DNA of 64,000 bases. Source: Nocardioides sp. B-3 (lineage in GTDB: Bacteria > Actinomycetota > Actinomycetes > Propionibacteriales > Nocardioidaceae). A program made the translations under genes and the position numbers. Shown here one piece after another: positions 58,001 to 64,000 of this stretch. The notes beneath the pieces were generated by a model. That model did not search any database. It was not told where the DNA came from and worked only from the letters and a program-made list of their open reading frames with translations. How positions within the stretch are numbered: the first letter of the stretch is position 1; each line of letters starts with the position of its first letter. The stretch covers positions 3,844,001-3,908,000 of the forward strand of contig NZ_CP087968.1 in assembly GCF_024703895.1 (NCBI RefSeq), read 5' to 3'.

Positions 58001-58890
58001 TCAGGGCGTGTACCCAAGGCTGACCACCTCGACAGCGAACCTCTCCAAGATGTCTCGGTGTCGGTTCACCATCTCGGACCGCTGCTCGAGCATCAGTGTC
58101 TCGACCATCGCGAAGTAGTCCTTGCCGCAGTCGGCGTAGATGGTCGCAAGGCGCTGCCTGTCGGCGTCGGCCGCGCCGTCGACCCCTGACAGGTAGCTGC
58201 TGGCGGGGTTCCTCACGGAGACGGTCAGGCCTGAGCGCTGTTCGAGGCACCCTGCCAACGGGCCTCTCAAAGCTGCTACCCGGTTGTCCGCAGTCACCGT
58301 GCGCTCGACCTCGGCCCACGGTGACCTCAGCTCGGACCACGCTTGGAACGTCGGCGCCTGATCGATCAGGTTGCCGGGACTCGCCGCGTCACAGTCACGC
58401 CGCGCGCCGGCGAACATGTTGACATAATCTTCCGTGAAGCCCCGCTCGCGGATCAGCTCGAGGTCGGGTGTGGTGTCCTGCGAGAAGCGCTCCGACGTGT
58501 CGTCGATCGGTGCTCCCCGACCACCGCACTGCTGGGCCATCCAGCTTCGGATGAACGTGTTGATCCGGATCGAGCGCCGCTGCCCGGGGCCCGGAACGCT
58601 GAAGGTCCCCTCGATGACGTCGGACAACACCTTCGGGTCCACCGCGGTTGGGCTGCTCGCAGCATCGACCGCCCGATCTCCGGAGTCGTCACCTCCGGCG
58701 CCGACCTGCGTCACGATCGCTCCCCGCCGAGAACCACCGCAACCGAGGCCGCGACGAGCGAGACTGTGATCAGCGACCTTTGTCGCTTCGCCTTCTTGCC
58801 GGACGCGACGAGGGATGCCATGGCCGGCCGGCGATCGGGGACGCGCTCCCCCAGGTCATCAAGAAGTCGAGTGGCTTCGTCGTGATTCAT
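58001..58890 (-). CDS. Membrane protein encoded with the ECF sigma factor (candidate anti-sigma factor)
   Basis: The ATG at 58890 overlaps the sigma factor stop (ATGA). The N-terminal part MNHDEATRLLDDLGERVPDR and a membrane helix SLITVSLVAASVAVVLGG precede, after a missing base near 58722, a 240-residue outside domain rich in charged residues with several Cys (QQCGGRG, RRDCDAA, AGCLEQR, YADCGKD). No enzyme motif is visible. By position and topology it could hold the sigma factor at the membrane, but no zinc-containing anti-sigma motif (HxxxCxxC) is present. Confidence 0.6.
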
Positions 58891-59409
58891 CGCGTCCCTC
58901 CGTGGTCGGTCAGGTCTGGGCTGTTGGCGAGCACGCCGAGCGCCCGCGACAGGCGGCTCTTGACCGTGCCCGGCGCGATGGACAGAGCGGCGGCGATCTC
59001 CGATTCGGTCAGGCGAACGAAGTAGCGGAGCGCGACGACCTCGCGTTGCCCCCCGGCTCAGACCGCTCACTGCTCGCCGTACGGCGTCGGCGGTGTCACT
59101 GGCCCCGGTGGCATCGGCTTCGTGCACGTCGGGGACGTCCGCGACCGACGTTTCTCGCCGCCACCGACGACGATGCGTGTCTCGGTGGGCGTTCACGAGC
59201 ATCTTCGACACGTAGGCGTCGCGATGGTCTGCCTTCATCACCTTGTGCCGGGCGACGTAGACCTTGAGGAGCGTCGTCTGTGCCGGGTCCTCGGCCTCGG
59301 AGAGCGTGCAGCCCAGTGCCGGGGCAGTGCGCACCGGGAGCGACATGCCCTCGCGACGGCGGTCCCCGCGTACACCCAAAAAGGACGCCCACACGGACGC
59401 CCCTTCCAC
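58887..59409 (-). CDS. RNA polymerase ECF sigma factor (SigE-like family)
   Basis: Region 2 is seen in AEDPAQTTLLKVYVARHKVM and DAYVSKMLVNAHRDTHRRRW; an extra G near 59054 shifts the frame, and region 4 then reads QREVVALRYFVRLTESEIAA and PGTVKSRLSRALGVLANSPD. Corrected length is 173 residues. The start is uncertain (GTG 59409, ATG 59346), and the N-terminal stretch is weakly conserved. It is coupled to the next gene and lies divergent from helR with just 64 bases between, so the RAE there might affect both. Confidence 0.75.
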
Positions 59410-59430
59410 TCTCAACTTATAGCGGAGGTG

Positions 59431-59450
59431 GGGGCTTGCGGCAAGGCCCC
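59431..59450. promoter_or_regulatory. Rifamycin-associated element (RAE)
   Basis: GGGGCTTGCGGCAAGGCCCC, an inverted repeat, lies 23 bases before the helicase start. As I recall it, this is the published consensus of the actinobacterial element found upstream of rifamycin-inactivating and helR genes and needed for their induction by rifamycins. I rely on memory for the consensus. Confidence 0.85.
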
Positions 59451-59473
59451 GACGATGCCGCAGACTTCACGCC

Positions 59474-61628
59474 GTGACGCTGCTGAACACTGATCCCTTC
59501 GCCCTGCCCGACGCTCTCTCCGCCAAGTCCGACCCCGCCCTCATCGACGCCGACCGCGCGCACTTCGCTGCGATCGAGCAGAGCCTCGAGGTCACGATCG
59601 CCGACCTCCGGGACCGTCTCGACGCCACTCTCAAGGCGCCCGGTGGCATCGACCGGGCGGCGATGGACCACGACGAGGAGATCCACCGCCTCGGCGTCCG
59701 GCTGCGCACGCTGCGGCGCTACACCCCGGACCTGTGCCTCGGCCGGGTCGTCGGAACGAACGGCGAGACCCTCTACGTCGGACGTCTCGGCCTCACCGAC
59801 CGCACGGGCGCCCGACTGCTGCTCGACTGGCGCTCCCCCGCGGCCGAACCGTTCTTCGGAGCGACCCACGCCAACCCGATGGGGTTGGCGAGTCGCCGTC
59901 GCTACCGGTGGACGCGCGGCCGGATCAGCGACTACTGGGACGAGGTGTTCACGCCGGAGGGACTCGAGGGGCACGCTGCCCCGGATGACCAGTCGGCCTT
60001 CATCGCCACCCCGGGCAGCAACCGGTCGCCGCAGATGCGCGACGTCCTCGGCACGATCCGGGCCGACCAGGGACGCCATCATCCGTGCCGGTTCACGCGG
60101 CGCCCTCGTCGTCGACGGCGGCCCCGGCACGGGTAAGACAGTGGTCGCACTCCACCGCACGGCCTACCTCCTCTACTCCGATCCACGACTCGGCGATCGC
60201 CGTGGCGGCGTGCTCTTCGTCGGCCCGCACCAGCCCTATCTCAACTACGTCGGCGACGTGCTGCCCAGCCTCGGCGAGGAAGGCGTGCAGACCTGCACGC
60301 TCCTCGACCTCCAGCCCGAAGGGTTGACGACCAAGCCGGAAGCAGACCCCGAGGTGGCGCGCCTCAAGTCGTCCGCCGACATGGTCCGGGCGATCGAGAC
60401 CGGCCGTGCGGCTGTACGAGGAGCCACCCAGCGAAGGCATGGAGGTCGAGACCCACTGGGCCGACGTCTGGCTCAGCACCAGCGACTGGGCCGAGGCCTT
60501 CGAGACGCCCGCCCCCGGCACCCCGCACAACGAGGCACGCGACGAGATCTGGGAGGAACTCATCACGATCCTGATGGACAAGCACGAGGCCGACGACGAC
60601 GTCTCCCCCGATCTTGTACGGCGATCGCTGACCCAGAACGCGGCGCTGGCCGACGCCTTCAACAAGGCTCGGCCGATCATCGAGGCCACGGACCTCGTCG
60701 GCGACCTCTGGGAGGTCCCGGCATATCTGCGCATGTGCGCGCCCCGGCTCAGCGCCGACGAGGTCCGCACTCTCCGGCGTGCCGACGCCCGTGACTGGAC
60801 ACTGTCCGACCTGCCGCTGTTGGACGCCGCCCGACAACGTCTCGGCGACCCCGAGGCATCTCGGAGGCGACGACGTCACGAGGCCGCCGTTGCCGCGGAG
60901 CACGCCCAGATGGATCGCGTGATCGACGAGATCCTCCAGCTCGACGACGAGGACGGGCTGATGGCGCAGCTCAAGCAGGGCGGCATTCGCGACGCACTCG
61001 TCGACGAGGGTGCACTCCCCCGGGCCGAGCGCGACCTGCTCGCCGGTCCCTTCGCGCACGTCGTCGTCGACGAGGCACAAGAGCTCACCGACGCTGAGTG
61101 GCAGATGCTGCTGCAACGGTGTCCGTCACGGAGCTTCACCATCGTCGGCGACCGTGCGCAGGCGCGGCACGGCTTCACCGAGTCGTGGGAAGAGCGGCTC
61201 GAGCGCGTCGGGCTCGGCGAGGTCCAGCTCGCCTCGCTGGCGATCAACTACCGCACGCCCCAGGGAGGTCATGGCGGCCGCTGAGCCGGTCATCCGCGCC
61301 GTACTCCCCGACGCCAACGTGCCCACCTCGATCCGCAGCAACGGCGTCCCCGTGCACCGCGGATCGGTCGACGAGCTGCCCTCGATCCCGAGAGGCCCGG
61401 CTCTCCGAGCACGAGCACGGCGAGGGCATCGCCTGCGTCATCGGCGACCCCACGTTCGAGGCGACCGACCGGATCAGGTCCCTCTCCCCCGAGCACGTGA
61501 AGGGCCTCGAGTTCGACCTGGTCGTGCTCATCGACCCCGAGTCGTTCGGCACCGGGATCGAGGGTGCTGTCGACCGCTACGTCGCGATGACGCGCGCGAC
61601 CCAGCGCCTCGTCATCCTGACGTCATGA
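59474..61628 (+). CDS. helR: HelD/HelR-type RNA-polymerase-associated helicase
   Basis: Superfamily 1 ATPase: the Walker A loop is [20 protein letters not shown] and motif [19 protein letters not shown], with motif [23 protein letters not shown] and the C-terminal [13 protein letters not shown]. The N-terminal coiled coil ([20 protein letters not shown]) is that which HelD inserts into RNA polymerase. Frames slip near 60073, 60410, 61265 and 61395; the corrected length is about 717 residues. Proteins with this plan and an upstream RAE (HelR) push RNA polymerase off DNA and protect it from rifamycins. The RAE 23 bases before the GTG start supports HelR over housekeeping HelD. Confidence 0.85.

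Positions 61629-61647: not shown

Positions 61648-64000
<2,353 letters not shown>

Follow-up and report, generated by a model that had tools for sequence, protein, structure and literature searches.

The rifamycin-associated element (RAE) is described as a 19-bp palindrome that precedes rifamycin-resistance genes, helR among them, and that is perhaps bound by an unknown factor (extracts of PMC10719064 and PMC12802891). HelR displaces rifamycin from RNA polymerase and so confers resistance in S. venezuelae and M. abscessus (PMC10719064, in extract), and its DWR motif is described in PMC8655204 (in extract). In M. smegmatis the RAE is reported to overlap the -35 of sense promoter 2, and sense transcription is reported to start some 20 bp before the RAE (PMC10719064, in extract). 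The RAE, HelR and rifamycin induction are known already; how actinobacteria sense rifamycins via the RAE is left open in the extracts of a 2022 review and a 2026 paper (PMC10719064, PMC12802891). The rifampicin alarm of B. subtilis helD/pps consists of two opposed promoters, of which the antisense one is the stronger, and the drug relieves the interference between them; when the distance was cut by 17 bp, the helD promoters became mutually exclusive and induction was abolished (PMC12802891, in extract).

An RAE in front of helR in a Nocardioides-like genome

The window analysed here is a stretch of 64,000 nucleotides (3,844,001-3,908,000) of a 4.48 Mb, single-contig Nocardioides-like genome with a completeness of 61%. 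The frames of helR, the sigma gene, its partner, the UvrA-like gene and rpoB are split in this genome (Table 1), and because several genes are split over frames in an assembly of one contig and 61% completeness, we treated the frame breaks as what they probably are, assembly errors; the genome is likely an uncorrected long-read assembly.

The initial annotation had placed an RAE-like inverted repeat 23 bases before a HelD-family gene, within a 64-base gap shared with a divergent gene, and both distances were borne out: 23 bases separate the palindrome GGGGCTTGCGGCAAGGCCCC (59431-59450) from the GTG at 59474, and 64 bases lie between the GTGs at 59409 and 59474. The convergent UvrA-like gene was likewise found where it had been reported, with 19 bases between its stop codon and that of helR. 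The search box was written down from the window sequence and the general form of the element, and was then matched to those that stand in front of rox, rph, rgt, arr and helR genes. With the 19-mer GGGGCTTGCGGCAAGCCCC as the search pattern, the window RAE was the single place in the 4.48 Mb genome at ≤2 mismatches, with no second RAE seen by a search that an indel-bearing copy could escape, which also answers the initial annotation's question about other RAE sites. At 3 mismatches one extra place appeared, and since a reversed-pattern control matched equally often (2 and 1), such matches are at chance level; an extended RAE pattern (≤3 mismatches) returned the window site alone (control, 0).

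The gene behind the RAE matches NCBIfam NF041254 (motor_HelR) in three pieces of 298.7, 204.2 and 452 bits that cover profile positions 1-193, 192-302 and 304-589 contiguously; none reaches the cut-off of 750 bits by itself, the gene having no single open frame and its C-terminal pieces lying outside the scan. Intact HelR relatives scored above this cut-off in 49 of 96 genomes, all with more than 1000 bits, and the best named match to the window HelR was that of Nocardioides pelophilus (74% identity). The translated pieces contain both the DWR motif and an NTPase motif that we take to be Walker A. In its piecewise motor_HelR match and these two motifs the gene is like HelR and other class II HelD proteins, and we saw nothing unusual in it. 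The window site is, as in the published description, a 19-bp palindrome upstream of a rifamycin-resistance gene, and because a real RAE here stands before a gene that matches HelR in pieces, published work leads us to predict rifamycin induction of helR and protection of RNA polymerase.

The UvrA-like relative in another genome (G005) is intact, with 810 aa and 695.8 bits to TIGR00630 (cut-off 729.8). A short UvrA-like gene convergent with helR was present in 10 of 29 same-genus HelR loci (at least 200 bits, within the fetched flanks; L145, L146, L151, L152, L156, L159, L163, L167, L168 and L170). As for rpoB, which the initial annotation had singled out for a check, the equivalents of D516, H526 and S531 are retained in the window genome, and those of N518, L521 and S522 in the rifampicin pocket read T, I and A. 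With residue numbering and reference residues as we presume them to be, the main rifamycin-resistance positions thus appear to be wild type and three lesser positions appear to differ.

Table 1. Features of the RAE-helR region (window coordinates).
Feature	Position	Strand	Remarks
Sigma partner, putative membrane anti-sigma-like protein	58001..58890	-	label by eye; frameshift-split
SigE-type ECF sigma gene	58891..59409	-	frameshifted; start uncertain, GTG 59409 or GTG 59394
13-bp hairpin from divergent start	59378..59407	-	-18.5 kcal/mol; z -4.89; 0/200 shuffles as stable
Predicted divergent start site	59406..59407	-	conserved GG on minus strand
Predicted divergent promoter -10, TAAGTT	59414..59419	-	consensus TANNNT, 19-bp spacer; inferred from conserved T1, A2, T6
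RAE palindrome	59431..59450		19-bp core 59431-59449; overlapping -35 boxes on both strands
Predicted helR promoter -35, TTGCGG	59436..59441	+	inferred from conservation
Predicted divergent promoter -35, TTGCCG	59439..59444	-	inside RAE
Predicted helR promoter -10, CAGACT	59461..59466	+	consensus CANAAT, 19-bp spacer; GTG 59474 at predicted start (leaderless)
helR, RNA polymerase recycling/protection ATPase	59474..61628	+	frame broken about four times
UvrA-like ATPase	61648..63998	-	convergent with helR; several frames broken; extends to window end

RAEs precede rifamycin-resistance genes across the class

A degenerate palindrome, GGGNCTTGCNNCAAGNCCC, was found at ≤1 mismatch upstream of HelR in 76 of 80 named HelR loci, at distances of up to 250 bases in 38 and of 250-700 bases in 12. 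The four loci lacking it at this stringency are L025, L065, L074 and L075, of which L065 and L075 have just 284 and 132 bases of sequence upstream. Within the genus, every one of the 29 HelR loci carries the palindrome within 400 bases at ≤2 mismatches. The remaining 26 named loci have their RAE more than 700 bases before helR (for example L012, L032, L033, L034 and L035); in several Streptomyces the sequence that follows the element resembles, by eye, the start of rgt, which suggests RAE-rgt-helR operons in these genomes.

The exact degenerate palindrome occurs in at least 120 of 296 genomes of the class, with reversed-control matches in about nine genomes among the matches listed. We examined 70 class-wide sites, a non-random set taken from the matches listed, 68 of which had enough flank for the downstream gene to be classed by sequence motifs or tblastn: helR-like in 32 cases (two at only 34% identity), rox-like in 18, rph-like in 7, arr in 4, rgt-like in 3 and unclassed in 4. 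When representatives were scored with NCBIfam, one rox-like protein passed the rifampin monooxygenase cut-off (853.5 of 800) and two fell below it (291.1 and 453), both arr representatives passed that of Arr, the rph-like one, cut by the end of its locus, reached 795.2 of 999, and the rgt-like one 517 of 800. Three of the unclassed genes read as arr. The last (L228; G379:C1:1049093-1052111, minus strand) encodes a 224-aa Amidase_2 protein, no known rifamycin gene, behind an RAE with the twin-promoter bases described below, and is possibly a new member of the RAE set.

RAEs also precede a second HelD family: among 22 HelD_MYCSM-type loci (L243-L264), 21 scored above the family cut-off and 20 have an RAE at ≤1 mismatch, the two without being L246 and L257. 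Eight HelD loci below the NF041465 cut-off (L265-L272) had no RAE at ≤2 mismatches, and for this reason the box may mark the resistance branch.

Conservation beyond the palindrome suggests a pair of divergent promoters

When 117 nonredundant HelR sites were aligned on the RAE, conservation extended without gaps from about -30 to +50 (base 0 being the first G). We collected 204 RAE sites before helR, rox, rph, rgt and arr (the RAE-bearing L248 stands outside this set), the class-wide ones being oriented via a flank profile learnt from the HelR sites. As the sites were picked by their palindrome, the invariance of the palindrome itself is partly by construction; outside it, between -30 and 49, nine positions are conserved at 0.95 or above, namely C-25, C-24, A-17, T-13, A-12, C-8, A31, A33 and T35. 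The plus strand reads TTGCGG at 5-10 and CANAAT at 30-35, and the minus strand, in mirror image, TTGCCG at 13-8 and TANNNT at -12 to -17, each pair with a 19-bp spacer. Read in this way, the conserved bases would include T1, A2 and T6 in a minus-strand -10, A2 and T6 in its plus-strand counterpart, and two positions at a predicted antisense start. The five key -10 bases occur together at 200 of the 204 sites, the exceptions being L016 and L216 (apparent 1-bp shifts), L215 and L261, and complementary mirror pairs of this kind have P=0.004 under random placement. Spacers of 19 bp are suboptimal for sigma70, and a promoter scan of 59300-59600 with a 16-18 nt spacer and TATAAT criteria found none. 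Among 30 same-genus loci there are 12, the window being one of them, whose helR begins 7-8 nt downstream of the plus -10, the distance that a leaderless mRNA would call for, so the predicted promoter facing helR could produce such an mRNA.

Two other ways of reading the upstream block fared less well. A TATA at -13 to -10, taken as an antisense -10 with a 17-bp spacer, was rejected, since the arr sites have lost the bases at -11 and -10 and kept those at -12, -13 and -17 (7 of 7). A sense -10 (CANNNT at -18 to -13) is disfavoured by the near-invariance of A-12, by the fixed spacing to the RAE and by the absence of a conserved sense -35 upstream.

A 14-base pattern of the -10 and -35 bases that left the GGG/CCC flanks of the palindrome free matched in 105 of 296 genomes, compared with 1 match of the reversed control, and by reading, all matched places but two (G183 and G206) carry an RAE-like palindrome; a stricter promoter-base pattern matched in 97 of 296 genomes, with no control matches seen. 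Because such patterns match almost only RAEs, the geometry is nearly private to them. Neither pattern picked up the window RAE, owing to its plus -10, CAGACT. The GGG/CCC flanks are present at nearly all promoter-only matches, and since these flanks accompany the geometry without being needed by a -35, a protein may bind there as well.

The predicted plus-strand promoter agrees with sense promoter 2 as reported for mycobacteria, and the published RAE has the same palindrome and the same -35 overlap with the sense promoter (PMC10719064, in extract). The extracts of PMC10719064, PMC8655204 and PMC12802891 mention neither a mirror-image promoter nor 19-bp spacers nor an antisense terminator, and nothing in the literature searched, a body of extracts other than the primary RAE and HelR papers, names an antisense promoter or terminator at an RAE.

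Many predicted antisense transcripts would begin with a hairpin

From the predicted antisense start at -24/-25, the minus strand folds into a hairpin at many sites, the arms of which vary together from site to site. Stems at 170 nonredundant sites average 7.62 bp, compared with 6.41 bp when arms were swapped between sites (maximum 6.68 in 200 trials) and with 5.82 bp after shuffling, and stems of at least 7 bp occur at 110 of these sites as against an arm-swap mean of 72.6 (maximum 87). A stem of at least 7 bp is found in 115 of 189 antisense leaders versus 12 of 204 sense leaders, the sense set not being de-duplicated. Stems of ≤5 bp were found in 53 of the 189 antisense leaders. At least four T among the next eight bases follow the stem at 48 of 71 sites with stems of at least 9 bp, 5 of 44 with stems of 7-8 bp and 3 of 53 with stems of ≤5 bp, and the hairpins of L012 and L043 resemble intrinsic terminators. 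When the hairpin region was aligned with MAFFT and folded with RNAalifold, no structure was returned, and the arm-swap comparison takes the place of that test.

In the window hairpin a T5 run is paired inside the 3' arm of the predicted fold, and a terminator scan of 59300-59600 that required a T-rich tail found none; the window hairpin may be terminator-like.

An ECF sigma gene lies beyond the hairpin

The divergent gene on the far side of the hairpin scores 59.9 bits with TIGR02983 in one frame (cut-off 141.55) and, with its frame broken, 19.6 bits for sigma region 2, under the Pfam cut-off. A 71%-identical homologue in a genome of the same genus (G009) has regions 2 and 4 above cut-off and the same partner gene, whose intact copy there has no Pfam or NCBIfam match. 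The sigma gene and a partner starting with MNHDEATRL occur in the window (58001-59415) and in L136 (4400-6014), and the partner is an unbroken 379-aa frame in G009. No HelR was seen near the G009 cassette in the 9 kb fetched, and its DNA similarity to the window (72%) begins at 59355, just past the RAE hairpin, so that the upstream region of the window sigma gene is not shared with G009.

A conserved pairing of RAE and sigma gene was rejected, as the sigma query had 0 matches in 29 same-genus HelR loci with about 4 kb of flank; among the 80 named loci it had weak matches in L004 and L074, neither of which adjoins an RAE by its coordinates. The initial annotation had taken the shared gap to be the sigma promoter as well. 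This stands insofar as a predicted antisense -35/-10 pair does face the sigma gene; the bases that form it are, however, general to RAE sites, and the hairpin lies between. A rifamycin signal reaching the sigma factor is physically possible, via leakage past the hairpin, in an arrangement that the sigma query showed in this genome only, and rifamycin control of this kind would seem to be a local peculiarity.

Discussion

Two observations go beyond the initial annotation, the conservation past the 19-bp box across 204 sites and the sigma pair just beyond the hairpin. We put at roughly 50% the probability that the RAE is a divergent, mutually exclusive pair of sigma70-type promoters with an early-terminated antisense arm, whose competition the drug would tip towards helR, and, jointly with this, that the window locus is an RAE-controlled helR gene. 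Comparison of sequences supplies the grounds, which are a geometry and a set of key -10 bases kept across sites, a hairpin particular to each site and a T tract at the longest stems, and the predicted twin promoters precede helR, rox, rph, rgt and arr alike. One palindrome would supply both -35 boxes, each with its -10 after 19 bp, and because the two boxes overlap, RNA polymerase would occupy one promoter at a time. A possibly leaderless mRNA would issue towards helR and, on the other side, a very short RNA that at many sites would form a hairpin right from its 5' end, with immediate termination. Were both promoters active, the antisense one, with its better -10 and conserved initiating GG, would hold the shared site and keep helR low without drug, and immediate termination, where a terminator is present, could let it recycle fast. 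Rifamycin halts RNA at 2-3 nt and might in this way preferentially disable the fast-cycling antisense competitor, upon which the helR promoter would fire with drug-free polymerase and HelR would strip the drug from polymerase, the last of these steps being published. In the window genome, leaky termination at the antisense hairpin could let transcription run into the ECF sigma cassette that lies directly beyond it. That the RAE amounts to a self-contained rifamycin sensor without a dedicated regulator, with the ECF sigma gene placed on its antisense output here, we consider doubtful. Several findings count against the twin promoters: the 19-bp spacers, the promoter and terminator scans of the window that returned neither, the T5 run paired within the window stem, the weak T tracts at stems of 7-8 bp, the 53 antisense leaders with stems of ≤5 bp and the RNAalifold result. 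Nor do the twin promoters account for the sense start reported in M. smegmatis some 20 bp before the RAE.

A bound factor is a serious rival, which we hold tentatively and at less than even odds: the RAE would be the operator of an undiscovered rifamycin-responsive transcription factor and the plus -10 the real helR promoter, with the conserved upstream bases and the hairpin insulating the site or forming part of the region that the factor binds. An unknown factor is what published work proposes (extracts of PMC10719064 and PMC12802891), and the GGG/CCC flanks, present at nearly every match of a pattern that leaves them free, point the same way. However, a protein sitting over the middle of both -35 boxes would more probably act as a block than as an activator. 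The upstream conserved bases have the identity, the position and the mirror-image spacing expected of a -10, and the hairpin arms change in the matched fashion of RNA structures, unlike operators. If instead the locus were an ordinary RAE-helR pair, with the extended conservation reflecting one sense promoter and recent common descent, it would be in keeping with the published pair and with a spread of RAE-bearing resistance genes by descent and transfer; this seems quite improbable and is already weakened, in that the same five bases recur in front of five gene families, and in two families of HelR, amid variable neighbours, in that the hairpin covaries, and by the specificity of the promoter-base pattern.

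The initial annotation raised the possibility that a rifamycin signal reaches the sigma factor. On that reading the RAE region would be a bidirectional promoter that co-induces helR and the ECF sigma gene, and rifamycin would switch on a sigma regulon. That the antisense -10/-35 faces the sigma gene, 64 bases from helR, agrees with this, as does the similarity to the G009 cassette starting at 59355, past the hairpin, with no upstream region common to both. We nonetheless find co-induction unlikely, given the strong hairpin between promoter and gene, inside which the sigma start codon may even lie, the broken sigma frame in this assembly, and the absence of a sigma-query match from the 29 same-genus HelR loci (about 4 kb flanks) and of a HelR from the 9 kb around the G009 homologue.

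The predicted divergent promoter pair also differs from the B. subtilis arrangement, in which the two helD promoters are convergent with 39 bp between their starts (PMC12802891, in extract): rather than facing each other upstream of the gene, the RAE promoters would face apart and overlap at their -35 boxes. Because mutual exclusion abolished induction in B. subtilis (PMC12802891, in extract), the model developed there is not simply transferable to the RAE.

With the invariant bases as the pattern, searches for rifamycin-controlled genes become more selective. If the RAE does consist of two divergent promoters and an antisense terminator of its own, rifamycin sensing through it would become directly testable, and the actinobacterial and Bacillus systems would come under one principle, promoter interference that is relieved by the drug.
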